Of a stretch of DNA of 64,000 nucleotides, positions 8,466 to 43,057 are shown piece after piece (positions within the stretch are counted from its first letter, which is position 1; each line of letters begins with the position of its first letter). The notes beneath the pieces were generated by a model that saw only the letters and a program-made list of their open reading frames with translations, was not told where the DNA came from and did no database searches. Source of the DNA: Pedobacter sp. PF22-3 (GTDB lineage Bacteria > Bacteroidota > Bacteroidia > Sphingobacteriales > Sphingobacteriaceae); assembly GCF_026239555.1 (NCBI RefSeq), contig NZ_JAPIVP010000013.1:1-64000 (forward strand). The letters run 5' to 3'. A program made the translations under genes and the position numbers.

Positions 8466-8707
8466 CACACCGAGACTATTCATTCTATTTCTTACTTGGT
8501 AGCTCACCAAACGACAGATGGCCTTATACCATAACCATTATCTTTTTTCTGGAAATCAGGTGCAGATGCTTTTAGGTTACTGCAGCCCCCGCTCTCCGTT
8601 CCTTCCGATGAAAAATCGGAACCACTGCGATCAGGTTTAGGTGGCACAGGCAGTAATGCTATTTTGGGTTGCATGGTGTAGAGAGAGAGGCAGTTGCCTA
8701 TTTATTC

Positions 8708-8766
8708 ACCATATAAGGCATTTAAGGGCATATAAGCTTAAATGTTCTTATATTTACTTATATGGT
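8708..8766. repeat. Nested inverted repeat of TATAAG blocks
   Basis: ACCATATAAG (8708-8717) pairs with CTTATATGGT (8757-8766), and CATTTAAG (8719-8726) with CTTAAATG (8737-8744), giving a long interrupted cruciform inside the composite element. Confidence 0.6.
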
Positions 8767-8782
8767 TATATATTTAGCTAAT

Positions 8783-8813
8783 AAAAGATCCTTCGCTAGA
8801 CTCAGGATGACAG
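8783..8813. repeat. AAAAGATCCTTCGCT...TCAGGATGACAG repeat, copy 1
   Basis: A ~31-bp sequence with a TCCT.../...AGGA stem. It occurs again almost unchanged at 9099-9129, so it is a direct repeat 316 bp apart. Confidence 0.6.
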
Positions 8814-9098
8814 CAGCTTGATCCGTTCCGTGATAACGTTTACATAGAAGATGTTTTAAATCAGTTAAGATGCTGTAATTACACAACAGGTATTGGACTA
8901 GAAAAGAAATTTATATAAAACTATGTAATTCTACCTCCAATAGAAGCATAGACACTGCGTTTTAGACCTGATTGAAATGGAAAGTCCACGCAGCGAGAAC
9001 TTGTAATGGAAAGCAGGGACAAACATTAAAAAGAGCTTCTGCAATTGCTCTTCAAGCAATCTTGACCACACTCCTTTTTTTTTACAGATTTAAATTGT

Positions 9099-11922: not shown

Positions 11923-14900
11923 ATGAATTACTCAAGGATCAACACCATTGGAGGCTGGCTGTGTTTTATTATTGCCGCACTCACGTACATCTTAACTTTA
12001 GATCAATCTGTAAGTTTCTGGGATTGTGGCGAATTCATTTCTTCTGCTTTTCGAATGGAGGTGGTTCACCAGCCTGGTGCCCCGATAGTTTCTATGATCC
12101 AAAGGTTATTTTCGGCGCTCGCTTTAGGCGATAAAACCAAAGTAGCCTACTTCGTTAATATATCTTCTGCACTTGCAAGTGCTGGTACGATCCTCTTTTT
12201 GTTCTGGACCATTACGGCACTGGCCAAGAAAACGGTAATTAAAAAAAGCGAGGAAATCACCAATCAAAAAATCATCGGGATTATGGGCGCCGGTTTGGTT
12301 GGGGCTTTGGCCTATGCTTTTTCCGACAGTTTCTGGTTTTCTGCAGTAGAGGCCGAGGTTTACGCCATGTCGTCGCTTTGTACAGCCATCGTATTCTGGG
12401 GCATATTAAAATGGGAATCGCAGGCTGATGAACCAAAATCAGACCGTTGGTTACTTTTTGTAGCCTACATTATGGGAATTTCCATTGGCGTACACATCTT
12501 AAACCTGCTTACCATCCCGGCTTTAATATTTGTTTATTACTTTAAAAAGAATCCATCACCTAATTGGCAAAGTATTTTAAAGGTATTTTTTGTTTCAATT
12601 GCTGTGCTCGCAGTAGTTCAATTTGGCATCATTCAATACATAATATCTTTTGCCGCAAGCTTCGATTACTTTTTTGTCAACACCATGGGTTTGGGCTTCG
12701 GAACGGGCATATTGTTTTTTGCAATGCTCATAATCGGCAGCCTGGTTTATGGCATCCGTTATTCTATCCTTAAAAATAAAAGGATTTTAAACCTGGTGAT
12801 GTTATTTACCGTTCTATTACTATTTGGATATAGCTCTTTTGCGCTCCTGATCATCAGGGCACAGGCTAAACCAAATTTGAACAACTATAATGTAGATAAT
12901 GTATTTTCTTTCTCGAGGTATGTGGGTCGCGATCAATACGGCGACAGGCCCCTGCTTTATGGAGAGAACTACAATTCAGAAAAAATAGGAATTAAAGAAA
13001 CGGGCAAGATTATCCGCAAGGGCGATAAAAAATATGAACCTGCAGGCACCAAATCGGAATATATTTTTGCCGATAAAACTTTACTGCCGCGTATGTACAG
13101 CGATAAACCAGAACATATTAATTTTTACAAAAATTATATGGGTTTTGATGATGAACATAAACCTACCCTGCTGGATAACCTAAAATACATGTTTTCTTTT
13201 CAGACCGGGCAAATGTACATGCGTTATTTCATGTGGAATTTTGTAGGCAGACAGGATAATGAAGATGGACAATTTGCTGGAAAAGACGGAAATTGGCTTA
13301 GCGGCGTAAAACCATTGGATGCCATCAGGCTTGGGAGTCAAAAAAACCTTCCGCCATCCATCGTAGAGAATAAAGCTTACAACAGGTTTTTCTTTTTACC
13401 TTTAATTATTGGCTTAATTGGCGCCATTTGGCATTTTAAGCGTAACCAAAAAGATGCAGGCATTATCGGTTTGCTTTTTGTATTCACCGGGGTGGCCATA
13501 GTTGTTTATCTAAACTCTGTCCCTATTGAGCCCCGCGAAAGAGATTATGCTTACGTAGGCTCGTTTTATGCTTTTGCCATCTGGATCGGTTTAGGGGTAT
13601 TTGGGTTAAAGGATTGGGTATTTCAGAAATTAACACCTTTGCGTGCCAGTATTTTGGCTACCGTTATAGCTTTGTTTGGCGCTCCGATCATTATGGCCAA
13701 CCAGGGCTGGGATGACCATGATCGTTCTGATAGCCATGTAGCGAGAGATATGTCTGTCAATTACCTAAAATCCTGCGCGCCTAATGCCATATTGTTTACC
13801 TATGGCGATAATGACACTTACCCGGTTTGGTATGCACAGGAAGTAGAAAATATCCGCCCCGATGTGCGCGTAGTGAATTTAAGCTTATTTACAACTGATT
13901 GGTATATTGATGGAATGCGAAAAAAACAAAATGAATCTAGCCCCCTACCTATCACCTTAAAACATGAGCAATATGTGGAAGGTACGAGGGATATCATGTA
14001 TTATCAGGATTATAAGATTGCGCAGCATATTGAATTACAGGAAATTTTAGACGTATTGTTATCCGATCATGACGAAGATAAAGTAACCATGACAGATGGT
14101 TCTAAATACAATGTATTACCTACCAAAAACCTTAAGCTGGCCGTAAGCCCACAACAAGTATTAGATACGGGAACCGTACCAAAAGAAGATGCCGGTAAAA
14201 TAGCTAGCAGTATGGAATGGACTTACAATTCGAATTTTGTAACCAAAGGTACCTTGGCATTATTTGATATTTTAACGCACAATAACTGGGAACGGCCGAT
14301 TTATTTTAGCGGCGCCATGCCGAACGAGCAGTATTTGGGACTTAATAAATACCTTTATTCTGAAGGTTTAAACAAAAGGCTGCTCCCCTTAAAACCCGAC
14401 ACTGCAATTACACAGGATTTTGATCGCGTAAACCTGAAACCGATGTACAACAACCTGATGAATGTGTATGGTTTCGGCAACATGAAATATGCCAACCATT
14501 TAGACAGGCAATCTGCCGATGATGTAACCATGTTATCGAACATGTTTAATGGTTTATTAACCGGGCTAATTAATGAGGGTAAAATTGCCGAGAGCAAAAA
14601 AGTAGCAAATAAGTACTTTGAAGTAATTCCGGCTAAATTTTACAGCATGCGCCAGGTAATGAGCACTTATTATTTTACCGAAAACCTATATCGGTTAAAT
14701 GATTTAAACCGTGCAAATGCCATGATCAAAAAAACAGCCGATTACGTAGGCAGGGAACTCACTCACCTGGCTGATGTTTCGGAGAGCAAAAATCAGCTAT
14801 CATCAGAACAGGATGTGCGTTTCTACCTGGGTTATTTAGGCCAAATGGTAAAAATAACCGAGGCATTTAAACAGGAAAGTCTAAGCAAAAGCCTCGAAAA

Positions 14901-14949
14901 AAAATATAACGATCTGATTGTAAGGTTTACTCCATTTGCTGCAGGATAG
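11923..14949 (+). CDS. DUF2723 multi-pass membrane protein, copy 1
   Basis: 1008 residues. The N-terminal ~60-300 holds about seven hydrophobic segments with the DUF2723 hallmark SFWDCGEFISSAFRMEVVHQPGAP; further membrane segments lie around 490-600 with PIEPRERDYAYVGSFYAF; the C-terminal ~400 residues are soluble and start at NQGWDDHDRS, with YGDNDTYPVWYAQEVENIRPDVRVVNLSL. DUF2723 is shared with eukaryotic TMEM260, reported to be a protein O-mannosyltransferase, so a lipid-sugar-dependent glycosyltransferase is a reasonable inference. It is a tandem paralogue of the next gene and is separated from it by a terminator. Confidence 0.88.
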   Translation: MNYSRINTIGGWLCFIIAALTYILTLDQSVSFWDCGEFISSAFRMEVVHQPGAPIVSMIQRLFSALALGDKTKVAYFVNISSALASAGTILFLFWTITALAKKTVIKKSEEITNQKIIGIMGAGLVGALAYAFSDSFWFSAVEAEVYAMSSLCTAIVFWGILKWESQADEPKSDRWLLFVAYIMGISIGVHILNLLTIPALIFVYYFKKNPSPNWQSILKVFFVSIAVLAVVQFGIIQYIISFAASFDYFFVNTMGLGFGTGILFFAMLIIGSLVYGIRYSILKNKRILNLVMLFTVLLLFGYSSFALLIIRAQAKPNLNNYNVDNVFSFSRYVGRDQYGDRPLLYGENYNSEKIGIKETGKIIRKGDKKYEPAGTKSEYIFADKTLLPRMYSDKPEHINFYKNYMGFDDEHKPTLLDNLKYMFSFQTGQMYMRYFMWNFVGRQDNEDGQFAGKDGNWLSGVKPLDAIRLGSQKNLPPSIVENKAYNRFFFLPLIIGLIGAIWHFKRNQKDAGIIGLLFVFTGVAIVVYLNSVPIEPRERDYAYVGSFYAFAIWIGLGVFGLKDWVFQKLTPLRASILATVIALFGAPIIMANQGWDDHDRSDSHVARDMSVNYLKSCAPNAILFTYGDNDTYPVWYAQEVENIRPDVRVVNLSLFTTDWYIDGMRKKQNESSPLPITLKHEQYVEGTRDIMYYQDYKIAQHIELQEILDVLLSDHDEDKVTMTDGSKYNVLPTKNLKLAVSPQQVLDTGTVPKEDAGKIASSMEWTYNSNFVTKGTLALFDILTHNNWERPIYFSGAMPNEQYLGLNKYLYSEGLNKRLLPLKPDTAITQDFDRVNLKPMYNNLMNVYGFGNMKYANHLDRQSADDVTMLSNMFNGLLTGLINEGKIAESKKVANKYFEVIPAKFYSMRQVMSTYYFTENLYRLNDLNRANAMIKKTADYVGRELTHLADVSESKNQLSSEQDVRFYLGYLGQMVKITEAFKQESLSKSLEKKYNDLIVRFTPFAAG

Positions 14950-15163: not shown

Positions 15164-18100
15164 ATGAATTATTCAAAAGTTAATAATATAGTAGGCTGGA
15201 TCTGCTTTTTAATTGCTACACTAACTTACGTTTTAACCTTAGAGCCTTCTGCCAGTTTTTGGGACTGTGGTGAATTTATCGCCTCAGCATTTAGAATGCA
15301 GGTTGTCCACCAGCCTGGCGCGCCTTTGTTCTTAATGATCCAACGTTTCTTCTCTATTTTTGCAGCTGGAGATTTAACCAAAATTGCTTACTGGATGAAC
15401 GTAGGTTCGGCTGTTTCGAGCGGAGCAACCATCTTATTCCTATTTTGGACCATAACCGCATTGGCTAAAAAAACAATATTAAAAGCTGGTGAAGAATTAA
15501 CTATAGGCAAGTTGATTAGTATTATGGGTGCAGGGGCTGTTGGTGCACTGGCTTATACTTTCTCTGATAGTTTTTGGTTTTCGGCGGTAGAATCTGAGGT
15601 TTATGCACAGTCATCACTGTTTACTGCCATTGTATTCTGGGCCATTCTTAAATGGGAAGCACATGCAGATGAGCCAAGGGCCGACCGTTGGTTACTGTTT
15701 ATTGCCTATATTATGGGTTTATCAATTGGTATCCACTTACTAAACTTATTAACTATACCAGCCCTTGCTTTTGTTTACTATTTTAAAAGAACCGATAAAG
15801 CAACCACTTCTGGAATTATCAAAACACTTATAGTTGGTATCTTAATTTTAGCAGTAATTCAGTATGGTATTATCCAATACTTAGTTTCGTTTGGTGCTTA
15901 TTTCGATCTGTTCTTTGTGAATACATTAGGTCTTGGTTTTGGAACTGGTGTTTTATTTTTCGCTATTTTATTGATCGGCGCCCTGGTTTGGGGAATCCGT
16001 TATTCGATCAAACATCAAAAGAAACTATTAAACTTAGGTTTAATTTCAACCGTTTTAATCATTTTCGGATACGCTTCTTTCTCAATGATCATCATCAGGG
16101 CAAAGGCAGATCCGAATTTAAATAACAGTGCACCTAAGGATGCTTTCTCTTTCTTAAGTTACCTAAACCGTGAGCAATATGGTGATAGACCACTGGCCTA
16201 CGGACCGAACTATAACTCTGAAAGAACAGGTGTAACGGAGGGTAAAACCATCTGGAGAAAAGGTAAAGATAAATATGAAGTGGCGGGTAAAAAAACCGAT
16301 TACGAATATAACAACAACACTTTACTACCTCGTATGTATAGTGATGACGCTAGACATGCCAGTTTTTATAAAGAATGGATGCACTTAGATGATAGCAAGC
16401 ACCCGAACGTAGTCGATAATGTTGGGTTTTTGGCCAGCTACCAGATCGGTTACATGTATATGCGCTATTTTTTCTGGAATTTTGTTGGTCGCCAGAACGA
16501 TGAGCAAGGTCAGGGCAGCGGATTTGAAGGTGAATGGATTAGTGGTATTAAGCCATTTGATAGCTGGTTACGTGGTGATCAAAGTCATTTACCACCATCA
16601 ACTGTTGATAATAAAGCGTACAACCGTTTCTTCTTTTTACCATTGATTATGGGCATAATCGGTGCACTTTGGCACTTTAAACGCAACCAGAAAGATGCTG
16701 GTGTAGTGGCCTTGTTATTCTTTTTTACAGGTATTGCGATTGTATTATACTTAAATCAAAAGCCTTTAGAACCGCGCGAAAGGGATTATGCTTATGTAGG
16801 ATCGTTCTATGCCTTTGCCATATGGATTGGGCTAGGGGCATTGGGGATTAAAGAGTGGCTGTTTAAAAAATTAACGCCAACGGCCGGGGCTATTGGTGCC
16901 ACAGTAATTGGTTTATTGGCCGCGCCGGTAATTATGGCTGAGCAGGGATGGGATGACCATGACCGTTCTACCAAACTGGTTCCTCATGATATTGCTTTGG
17001 ATTACTTACAATCCTGTGCACCAAATGCCATCTTATTTACTTATGGTGATAATGATACCTACCCGCTTTGGTATATCCAGGAGGTAGAAAATGTTCGTCC
17101 TGATGTTCGTATTGTAAACTTAAGTTTATTTGATACAGATTGGTACATTAATGGCTTAAGACAAAAACAAAATGAATCAGCTCCATTGCCAATTACCATG
17201 AAACCTGAACAGTATGTACAGGGCGAAAGGGATGTGATGCCATATGATGATTATAAAATTGCAGGTAGTGTTGAGCTTAAAAATGTAGTTGATTTATTGT
17301 TATCAAACGATGAGAGCGATAAAGTACCGATGCAAGACGGATCAAAATCTAACTTCCTGCCAACTAAAAACCTTAAAATTACGGTAGATCCTCAGCAGGT
17401 AATTAGTACAGGAACAGTGTCTGCAGCTGATGCTTCAAAAATTACCACCACAATGGATTGGAAATTTAATAAAGGTTATGTTACCAAAGGAACTTTGGCA
17501 ATGTTTGATATCCTGGCACATAACAACTGGAAACGCCCAATTTATTTTGCTTCTACTGTTCCTTCTGAGCAATATAACGGCTTGGATAAATATTTATATA
17601 GCGAAGGCTTAGCTTTACGCTTAATGCCGCTTAAAGCTGATACAACTGCATCAGAAGATAGACCAGAGCAATTGAACACGCCTATATTGTACAATAATGT
17701 GATGACTAAATTTAAGTGGGGAAATATGAAAACTGCTAAATATTTAGATCCGCAATCATCAGATGATACGTTCATTTTTACGAACCTCTTCAGTAGCTTA
17801 ACCAACAGCTTAATTAAAACAGGTAAAATGGATGAGGCCAAAAAAGTGGTCGATAAATATTATGCGGTAATGCCTGATAAATTCTTCGGCATCCGTACAG
17901 TTGTCGTAAAATTCTATATGGCTGAAAACTTATATAAATTAGGTGAAACCGCCAGAGCCAATGAGATTTTAGACAAATCAGGTGATTACATCAATAAGGA
18001 ATTGAACTACCTGGCTGATATTTCACAATCAAAAGGTTTAACCGGATCGCAGAATATCCAAACCGGCTTATACTATCTGGACCGGATGATTAAAACGAGT

Positions 18101-18202
18101 AAAGCTGCGGGTCAGGATAAGTTGAGCGATAAGCTGCAGAAAATCTTCAATAACCTTGAAGGCCGCCTATCAGTGTTCTTCCCACAGCAAGGTCCGCAAT
18201 AA
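15164..18202 (+). CDS. DUF2723 multi-pass membrane protein, copy 2
   Basis: 1012 residues, collinear with copy 1 over its whole length: SFWDCGEFIASAFRMQVVHQPGAP at the N-terminus, the same run of hydrophobic segments, PLEPRERDYAYVGSFYAF, then EQGWDDHDRS and the soluble half. The C-terminal region after ~870 (AENLYKLGETARANEILDKS) looks TPR-like. The acidic FWDCGEF loop is kept in both copies, in line with a catalytic role as in GT-C transferases, but no substrate can be read from the sequence. Probably an old tandem duplication. Terminator follows. Confidence 0.88.
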   Translation: MNYSKVNNIVGWICFLIATLTYVLTLEPSASFWDCGEFIASAFRMQVVHQPGAPLFLMIQRFFSIFAAGDLTKIAYWMNVGSAVSSGATILFLFWTITALAKKTILKAGEELTIGKLISIMGAGAVGALAYTFSDSFWFSAVESEVYAQSSLFTAIVFWAILKWEAHADEPRADRWLLFIAYIMGLSIGIHLLNLLTIPALAFVYYFKRTDKATTSGIIKTLIVGILILAVIQYGIIQYLVSFGAYFDLFFVNTLGLGFGTGVLFFAILLIGALVWGIRYSIKHQKKLLNLGLISTVLIIFGYASFSMIIIRAKADPNLNNSAPKDAFSFLSYLNREQYGDRPLAYGPNYNSERTGVTEGKTIWRKGKDKYEVAGKKTDYEYNNNTLLPRMYSDDARHASFYKEWMHLDDSKHPNVVDNVGFLASYQIGYMYMRYFFWNFVGRQNDEQGQGSGFEGEWISGIKPFDSWLRGDQSHLPPSTVDNKAYNRFFFLPLIMGIIGALWHFKRNQKDAGVVALLFFFTGIAIVLYLNQKPLEPRERDYAYVGSFYAFAIWIGLGALGIKEWLFKKLTPTAGAIGATVIGLLAAPVIMAEQGWDDHDRSTKLVPHDIALDYLQSCAPNAILFTYGDNDTYPLWYIQEVENVRPDVRIVNLSLFDTDWYINGLRQKQNESAPLPITMKPEQYVQGERDVMPYDDYKIAGSVELKNVVDLLLSNDESDKVPMQDGSKSNFLPTKNLKITVDPQQVISTGTVSAADASKITTTMDWKFNKGYVTKGTLAMFDILAHNNWKRPIYFASTVPSEQYNGLDKYLYSEGLALRLMPLKADTTASEDRPEQLNTPILYNNVMTKFKWGNMKTAKYLDPQSSDDTFIFTNLFSSLTNSLIKTGKMDEAKKVVDKYYAVMPDKFFGIRTVVVKFYMAENLYKLGETARANEILDKSGDYINKELNYLADISQSKGLTGSQNIQTGLYYLDRMIKTSKAAGQDKLSDKLQKIFNNLEGRLSVFFPQQGPQ

Positions 18203-18226: not shown

Positions 18227-18259
18227 AAAGCAGCTGCATTAATTTGTAGCTGCTTTTTT
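18227..18259 (+). terminator. Terminator after DUF2723 copy 2
   Basis: Stem AAAGCAGCTGCA / TGTAGCTGCTTT with a short A/T loop and a T-tract. Confidence 0.78.
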
Positions 18260-18263
18260 ATTT

Positions 18264-18396
18264 GCTTGCGCTCGTTTCTAACGAGCGCAGTAATAGCTTT
18301 ACGATTTCATCGTAAAAGATGATATAAATTTAAATTTAGGATAAAATCGTAAATATGACCAACTATCTACATGCTCGTTGGAACAAGTGTGAGCAA
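18264..18396. repeat. REP-like palindromes left of the RayT gene
   Basis: Hairpin TGCGCTCGTT-tct-AACGAGCGCA (18267-18289), then TTTACGAT-ttc-ATCGTAAA (18298-18316), then a degenerate inverted copy containing ATGCTCGTTGGAACAAGTGTG (18371-18391 region). The same parts flank the other side of the transposase gene. Confidence 0.8.
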
Positions 18397-18432: not shown

Positions 18433-18987
18433 ATGTCAGATCAATACCAAGCAAGAGATCCGGAAGGCATCTATTTTTTAACTTTTACGATTGTTGATTG
18501 GGTAGATATATTCACCCGCTCATCTTATAAAGAAATTATTTTAGATTCATTAAAGTATTGCCAGTCTAGCAAGGGCCTTATACTGCATGCATATTGCTTA
18601 ATGACTAATCATATCCACCTCATTGCATCTGTCGGAAAAAACATAAAGCTTTTTGAAATAATTAGAGATTTTAAAAAGTTTACAAATAGGGCGATTATCG
18701 AAGAGATTAATTCAGGAAATGAAAGCAGGAAAAAGTGGCTGCTGAGTAAGTTTGAATTCGCAGGAAAATACCTTAAAAGAATTGAGAATTATAAGGTTTG
18801 GCAAGATGGTTACCATGCTGTTGAATTAATCAGTCGAGATTTTACATTTCAAAAGCTAAATTACATTCATCAAAATCCAGTTAGAGCTGGAATTGTATCA
18901 GAGCCCGAACATTATATTTATAGTTCCGCGACTAATTATCATGGGCTTAGCGGACTAATAGAAATTGAATTACTAGACATTGATTAA
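18433..18987 (+). CDS. REP-associated tyrosine transposase (RayT)
   Basis: 184 residues of the Y1/IS200-like HUH transposase superfamily. The metal-binding HUH motif is HIH at 60-62 (MTNHIHLIAS), and the catalytic Tyr is probably 144 in the diagnostic stretch NYIHQNPVRAGIV. Single-domain RayTs bind and cut REP palindromes and are domesticated rather than full insertion sequences. It is flanked on both sides by matching palindromes in inverted arrangement, which are its likely substrate. The gene is intact with no frameshift. No accessory TnpB. Confidence 0.93.
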   Translation: MSDQYQARDPEGIYFLTFTIVDWVDIFTRSSYKEIILDSLKYCQSSKGLILHAYCLMTNHIHLIASVGKNIKLFEIIRDFKKFTNRAIIEEINSGNESRKKWLLSKFEFAGKYLKRIENYKVWQDGYHAVELISRDFTFQKLNYIHQNPVRAGIVSEPEHYIYSSATNYHGLSGLIEIELLDID

Positions 18988-19000
18988 TATTTATTGAATG

Positions 19001-19131
19001 CTTGCGCTCGTTTCTAACGAGTGCAGCAATTGCTTTACGATTATATCGTAAAGCAAGCTAAATATACCGATAACTAACACCGTAAAATACGGTATCCTAT
19101 TTACACGCTCGTTAGAAACGAGCGTGAGCAC
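19001..19131. repeat. REP-like palindromes right of the RayT gene
   Basis: TGCGCTCGTT-tct-AACGAGTGCA (19003-19025) is a direct copy of the left hairpin; GCTTTACGAT-tat-ATCGTAAAGC (19032-19054) matches the second left hairpin; CACGCTCGTT-aga-AACGAGCGTG (19104-19126) is the inverted copy. Together with the left side this is a REP doublet (BIME-like) on each side of the gene. Confidence 0.8.
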
Positions 19132-19135
19132 CCAC

Positions 19136-19172
19136 AAAAAAAAATCCCGTTTAGCATAGCCAAACAGGATTC
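19136..19172 (-). terminator. Terminator of accA
   Basis: On the minus strand a stem of AATCCTGTTTG with its near complement (one mismatch) around a short loop, followed by nine T residues. Confidence 0.78.
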
Positions 19173-20282: not shown

Positions 20283-20820
20283 TTTTGGAAAGCAGTTTCA
20301 GTGGTTATTGGGTTGGGTTCCGTCCTGCTCTTCCTCCTCCCGATGAAAATCGGGATCGGTCCGATCAGGTTTAGATTACACCTGTTTTTGCAGCTACGCG
20401 GGGTTTCCGTGCCATTGCCTAAAAGAAGTTCGTGAAAACAAGAACCCTGACTAAAAGATTATTACCGGATAATAACCAAACGTTCCTAACGGAACGTAAA
20501 CGCCAATTATACAATTGGCTACCCAGGAATCGTCCCACTGGGACGATTAATTTAACCGTTTTTACCACGGGTACCCAAAACGTCCCACGGGGACATGTCA
20601 TAGGTAGCAGAAAAATACATTTCATGTTTTTCGTTCCATAGGAACGTTTCACGTTTTTCAAAAAGAAAAATATTTGACCACCATGCCGGGTTTCCGTGCA
20701 CTGCCCTAACCTACCTAGCCCTGATTGAAATGAAAAGCCCTCAAACGAGGCACGAGTGAGGACTTGTAATGTAAAGCAGGATTAACGATAATCATTGTGC
20801 TGCCTCTGCGCTCCAAAAAA
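20283..20820 (+). other. Composite structured intergenic element, copy 2
   Basis: Fills most of the gene-free stretch 20156-20936. The 5' part (20285-20400) has the hairpin TCCCGAT-gaaa-ATCGGGA (20338-20355) followed by GATCAGGTTTAG (20363-20374). The 3' part (20715-20816) has TAGCCCTGATTGAAATG, AACGAGGCACGAG, ACTTGTAATG, AAAGCAGGA and TGTGCTGCCTCTGCGCTCC. Order and spacing match copy 1 at 8545-9085, and the hairpin differs from copy 1 by a compensatory T-A to C-G pair. Part of the 3' half also recurs inverted at 42840-42978. Confidence 0.55.
20481..20646. repeat. Array of five short palindromes
   Basis: CGTTCC-taac-GGAACG (20481-20496), CCAATT-atac-AATTGG (20503-20518), AATCGTCCC-act-GGGACGATT (20528-20548), GTCCC-acg-GGGAC (20582-20594) and CGTTCC-ata-GGAACG (20632-20646), all inside the composite element. 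The stems differ but share the form xGTyCC...GGyACx. Two overlapping frames on opposite strands here are artefacts of the palindromes. Confidence 0.7.
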
Positions 20821-42839: not shown

Positions 42840-42978
42840 CAGTTTTCATTTGGAGCGCAAGGCCTGTACAGCACATAAAGTTTCTTCCTGTTTTCCGCTT
42901 TTCCGCTTCGCTGCCTCGTGCCTCGTTGCTGCAGGGTAACGCTTCAACCAGGGCTAAGCCAGTAATACGGTATTTCAT
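42840..42978 (-). repeat. Composite element 3' half, copy 3 (inverted)
   Basis: Read on the minus strand: TAGCCCTGGTTGAAGCG, AACGAGGCACGAG, GGAAAACAGGA, TATGTGCTG and CTTGCGCTCCAAA, in the same order as 20717-20816 on the plus strand. A 77-codon open frame across it (42745-42978) is a by-product and not called as a gene. It is part of the gene-free stretch 42730-43483. Confidence 0.55.
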
Positions 42979-43057
42979 TTTGGGGGTTTAGGGTGCACAA
43001 AACCTGGTTCCTAAACCCGACAATGGCGGCAGCACAATTTCATTAAGTTAAGCGCCA

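Follow-up and report, generated by a model that had tools for sequence, protein, structure and literature searches.

Flavo-1 (RF01705) is the closest described relative of the element studied here. It was rated a probable RNA by Weinberg et al. 2010 (PMC2864571), and Rfam models it as one 76-nt unit of the type sRNA gene. BIMEs and REPINs (TnpA-REP) form a second related group. They are extragenic hairpin repeats with units of 20–40 nt, and RAYT enzymes mobilise REPINs; in Bacteroidetes, the RAYTs of subclass 2.6 have flanks with "atypical secondary structures" (PMC6006769). Both groups were compared with an element that recurs in a window of 64,000 nucleotides from Pedobacter sp. PF22-3 (NZ_JAPIVP010000013.1, positions 1 to 64,000), whose 5.6-Mb genome has Pedobacter species as its close relatives. 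MITEs (e.g. Correia or ERIC-type), short non-coding elements with inverted ends that are dispersed between genes, served as a third comparison.

The element shares its helices and its phylum with Flavo-1, and the cores of its right-hand units exceed the curated Rfam cut-off. Its arrangement differs: the units are paired on opposite strands into dyads whose outer ends are conserved, and they also form tandem arrays, whereas the top Flavobacterium-type Flavo-1 loci that were checked mostly hold one unit. The likeness to BIMEs and REPINs lies in the high copy number, in the lack of target duplication and in extragenic hairpins that occur as inverted pairs, singly and in arrays, but the Pedobacter units are longer (about 65–100 nt). 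As in MITEs, the dyad is short, non-coding, inverted-ended and dispersed between genes; unlike them, it has a structured hairpin in each arm. The motif itself is known. Its inverted-pair form appears to be undescribed in the literature searched, which held nothing on point about Flavo-1 function or palindromic repeats in Pedobacter.

Anatomy of the window copies

The Rfam Flavo-1 model (curated cut-off 42 bits) matched the right halves of two copies in the window, here called A and B, on the plus strand and far above chance (E = 8.5e-8 for one half and 1.9e-6 for the other). In copy A, the core at 8960-9024 (45.0 bits) and its outer end make up a right unit at 8960-9055. In copy B, the core at 20713-20787 (49.9 bits) lies in a right unit at 20713-20816, with the outer end GCGCTCCAAAAAAA. 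The left half of copy A gave a minus-strand match at 8581-8642 that fell short of the cut-off (29.3 bits), so that this half looked like Flavo-1 turned round. A covariance model (R1) was trained on 22 right-hand units with their outer ends from this genome. It scored the right units at 79.4 bits (A) and 77.2 bits (B), and it recovered both left halves, which were absent from its training set, on the minus strand. These left units, at 8549-8642 in copy A (46.7 bits, E = 3.6e-9) and 20285-20376 in copy B (53.9 bits, E = 3.5e-11), carry a Flavo-1-like hairpin and have the outer ends TTTTTTCTGGAAATCAG and TTTTTTTGGAAAGCAG, respectively. The element is therefore a dyad of a left minus-strand unit and a right plus-strand unit, and each region of ~540 bp is best read as two Flavo-1 units back to back. 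A preliminary description of the window had recognised two halves in both regions, but it noticed neither the known family nor the inversion of the halves, nor the arrays described below.

A unit folds into a helix of 6 pairs that includes an A-G mismatch, followed by a block of 2 pairs flanked by an A-G and a G-A mismatch, and then a variable hairpin tip. The typical dyad is ~250 bp long with a spacer of ~50 bp, and its outer ends, TTTTGGAAAGC...GCTTTCCAAAA, face outward. Single-sequence folding energy was uninformative (z -1.8 to +0.7).

The interiors of copies A and B measure 317 bp (8643-8959) and 336 bp (20377-20712). Such gaps are unusual, since the gaps of "-+" neighbours among the R1 units of this genome peak at 47-53 bp. 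The equal spacing given in the preliminary description is thus coincidental. Its view of the middle as an insertion-tolerant stretch of unrelated small repeats agrees with the interiors of copy B orthologs, which are often just 49-50 bp (as in L307, L309, L311 and L312). The middle has therefore gained extra material: copy B acquired clustered small palindromes (about 20475-20660), and copy A another common repeat, AAAGATCCTTCGCTAGACTCAGGATGACAGCA, unrelated to the units (about 8783-8815). The copy A interior is ~166 bp in several orthologs. Two similar stretches of ~24 bp (20396-20419 and 20683-20705, GGGTTTCCGTGC...) flank the palindrome cluster of copy B, as if a target had been duplicated by insertion or two dyads had merged.

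A third copy, previously taken for a partial one at 42840-42978, contains one complete minus-strand unit at 42850-42959 (R1 50.4 bits, E = 3.2e-10). It is the partner beside it that is degenerate: interior and partner core (CCTAAACCCGACAATGG) occupy 42960-43035, and the partner scored below the R1 model threshold. Over 174 bp this copy is 80% similar to the dyad at C56:168980-169157.

Loops of GATGAAAAATCGG-type hairpins contain a short repeat (GATGAAACCTGTGAAACAAGCAAGCACACCATA...TGCTTAAATCGG) in several Flavo-1 tips (L310, L312, L314, L315, L317) and also elsewhere (L005:1017-1078). Its position suggests that hairpin loops are insertion sites.

Copies across the Pedobacter genome

Further copies are numerous. 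Rfam alone returned 90 Flavo-1 matches in the genome, 39 of them over the cut-off, and R1 found at least 159 distinct units in the genome regions scanned. Several ends of draft contigs hold arrays or near-identical copies (C8:1-311, C10:126111-126709, C12:502483-502863, C19:1-824, C24:20738-21317, C60:213-811), and the number of copies counted is therefore probably too low.

The orientation of the units follows a rule. All 19 isolated opposite-strand doublets of R1 units were of the order "- +", and none was "+ -". Among neighbouring units less than 700 bp apart, 43 were "-+", 15 "+-", 14 "++" and 6 "--". Tandem arrays, e.g. -+-+-+, occur at C3, C1 and C45, and units also occur singly. Dyads at far-apart loci were 80-86% similar over their whole length, interior included, which argues that they were copied as a unit.

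Covariation and folding

The exchange between TTCCGAT/ATCGGAA and TCCCGAT/ATCGGGA that distinguishes the two copies is real, and it sits in the hairpin tips of the left units. The preliminary description had taken it as a sign of a structured element under selection, and alignments of many copies gave strong covariation. In a 22-sequence alignment, the covariation score was 0.446, compared with 0.173 after shuffling. In 139 distinct rows there were 538 doubly changed cells (153 when shuffled), and 90.5% of cells were paired; here and below, the pairing columns are those of a model-fitted alignment, which is biased toward structure, a bias bounded by slid-partner controls that reached 48-53% at best. 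Pair 14:155 was UA in 53 rows, CG in 34, AU in 30 and GC in 22, with no wobble.

The strongest test comes from a single inherited site. The copy B locus was taken from 30 Pedobacter genomes, 24 of which held a total of 54 units. In these units 92.9% of cells pair, and doubly changed cells number 226 as against 69 shuffled. By parsimony on the tree of a neighbouring gene, the 11 core pairs underwent compensatory double changes 47 times, whereas single changes kept the pair 13 times and broke it 7 times. The base pairs of Flavo-1 are thus supported by covariation. Each half folds by itself.

Inheritance and distribution among species

Copies A and B are old, with the same sites occupied across many Pedobacter species. 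About 19 other Pedobacter species also have the copy A site, which adjoins pth, occupied; for the copy B site this holds in 23 of the 29 other Pedobacter genomes examined. Within the genus, R1 matches number 34 to at least 100 in 14 genomes and 0 or 1 in 11. In a sample of the phylum, 44 of 297 genomes, many from one genus of one family, had Rfam Flavo-1 matches.

Persistence goes together with repeated loss and replacement. At site C56:61662, the states found were a full dyad, the left unit only, the right unit only, another hairpin, or genes just 18 bp apart. These states are scattered over the gene tree, and they were lost and replaced repeatedly. Three species at this site (L372, L378 and L379, compared with L370) carry an unrelated hairpin (AACCTCGCAGGTTT..AAACCTGCGAGGTTT) in place of the dyad. 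They are not mutual sisters, and the replacement hairpin is of the same kind in each, as though the site favours hairpins.

Flank comparison at 80 pth loci, and joined flanks searched against all loci collected, revealed no clean empty site, nor did the loci compared include a fresh insertion with an empty site and a target duplication. A dyad at C11:8797 lies between palindromes of a RAYT-type repeat; it is part of a mosaic and no clean nested insertion. Plasmid and phage record collections gave no match at blastn sensitivity.

Eight IMG/VR contigs (L362-L369) hold a Flavo-1 form that resembles a three-way junction (GCGTTAGGGAT...core...AGCCCGACCC..GGGTAACGCC). On a 5,676-bp microvirus-like phage contig it lies beside an apparent replication gene (L362:3599-3656), and in two tailed phages that are related to each other (L363, L366) it follows closely on an apparent terminase gene; both genes were named by eye.

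Nature and origin of the dyads

The most probable explanation, which we hold with moderate confidence, is a BIME/REPIN-like repetitive DNA dyad that once spread as one unit and in which each hairpin is maintained by selection. We infer past mobility, a single-stranded DNA route and a trans-acting enzyme: the dyad would be an extragenic repeat of which whole copies were dispersed over the genome and built up into tandem arrays, probably via single-stranded hairpin DNA recognised by a putative trans-acting enzyme. After placement it is inherited vertically, and compensatory change keeps each hairpin foldable. Some observations tell against this. A regulatory function could explain why many species keep the element at the same sites, and the G-U excess given below is equally compatible with RNA and with one-strand DNA. 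Among the loci compared, we saw no clean recent insertion and no transposase gene with a convincing adjoining unit.

A wider proposal, which we advance tentatively and with a little less than even confidence, is that Flavo-1 is a DNA-level hairpin element, which forms dyads and arrays in Pedobacter, spreads by a putative ssDNA enzyme other than a RAYT with Flavo-1 at its flanks, and also occurs in Bacteroidota phages, including an ssDNA microvirus. An orphan "RNA" since 2010, Flavo-1 now becomes a testable problem of repetitive DNA, in which the enzyme that recognises the hairpin has to be named and the long persistence of the structure at the same intergenic sites explained.

The units might instead be functional structured RNAs, either small RNAs or untranslated-region elements, whose inversion gives one correct fold for each direction of transcription. 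This agrees with the Rfam type and the rating of Weinberg et al., with the compensatory evolution in place at the copy B site, and with the transcriptome of F. psychrophilum, in which some 5' transcribed regions overlap Flavo-1 matches (PMC9723704). Read along the strand of the motif, G-U pairs are more frequent than A-C mismatches (43 to 17, p = 0.001), so that one strand matters. Wobble pairs, however, are few (about 2% of cells) although pairs are exchanged heavily, a suggestive pointer away from RNA. A cis-regulatory RNA would also be expected in a fixed orientation to the regulated gene, but copies were found between tandem, convergent and divergent genes alike, and the single units in tandem spacings were sense to the upstream gene in 11 cases and antisense in 9; a strand preference is likewise lacking in F. 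psychrophilum (PMC9723704). Moreover, no dyad transcript carries both units in sense, and the copies per genome range from 0-1 to at least 100 in one genus. We consider this reading unlikely. Transcriptomics placed Flavo-1 matches in sense or antisense without distinction, a pattern simply explained by the inverted dyads, the absence of a preferred strand relative to genes and the independent folding of the halves. With so many units, and with self-folding halves kept by paired mutations, the motif behaves like a repetitive DNA element and not like a simple small RNA. Covariation alone, we caution, is no proof of RNA.

Somewhat less likely again is a classical MITE, in which the outer ends would be the terminal inverted repeats of a putative cut-and-paste transposon and the dyad would be moved by its transposase. 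Inverted ends (TTTTGGAAAGC/GCTTTCCAAAA), a length of ~250 bp and similar, dispersed copies are all present. Yet by inspection no target-site duplication was visible at the 19 isolated dyads, and neither a full-length relative with a gene between such ends nor a parent transposon was seen in the loci examined. The entire arm of ~100 nt is a structured, covarying unit, and single units and arrays exist besides the dyads.

Mobilisation as REPINs by resident RAYT (Y1 transposase) genes is improbable. Inverted pairs and arrays of extragenic palindromic units without target duplication are REPIN-like, and a Y1 gene is present in 14 of 14 Flavo-1-rich but only 3 of 11 Flavo-1-poor genomes of the genus, a correlation confounded with clade because the Flavo-1-poor genomes are mostly more distant. 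The GT[AG]G tag that REPINs carry at the hairpin's 5' foot was not seen; before the helix, units start with TAAACC or TAGCCC. An R1 scan of 36 Y1-transposase loci from this and other genomes yielded no convincing adjoining unit, with one partial match of 31 bits (L183), and within 1.5 kb of the RAYT-type loci of this genome no R1 unit was significant (best 13.5 bits). Five of these loci, apparently intact, are each flanked by different palindromes of their own. A resident RAYT is therefore an unlikely partner, and for lack of both the tag and the RAYT association we file the dyad as a new arrangement of Flavo-1 rather than as a REPIN.

The preliminary description had proposed an RNA or cruciform structure with GATCAGGTTTAG in the first half paired to CCTGATT in the second. 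The complementarity of GATCAGG and CCTGATT, however, simply follows from their being the same motif in inverted copies on opposite strands. Pairing between the halves would require a base-for-base match, and left-right pairing in dyads (65% of cells, against 68% with shuffled partners and 96% within halves) refutes it as the conserved structure; although it may form transiently, we regard it as very improbable.

Further features of the window

An intrinsic terminator was rejected on inspection: T-runs precede the left unit and A-runs follow the right unit, the wrong order in either direction. Between copies A and B lies a RAYT-type transposase gene (18433-18987, motifs NHIH and YIHQNP), accompanied by its own palindromic repeats (GCTCGTTTCTAACGAGC) at 18254-18329, 18990-19065 and 19097-19139. 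Two adjacent ORFs of ~1,010 aa (11923-14949 and 15164-18202) have a DNA similarity of ~74% and look like a tandem duplication.
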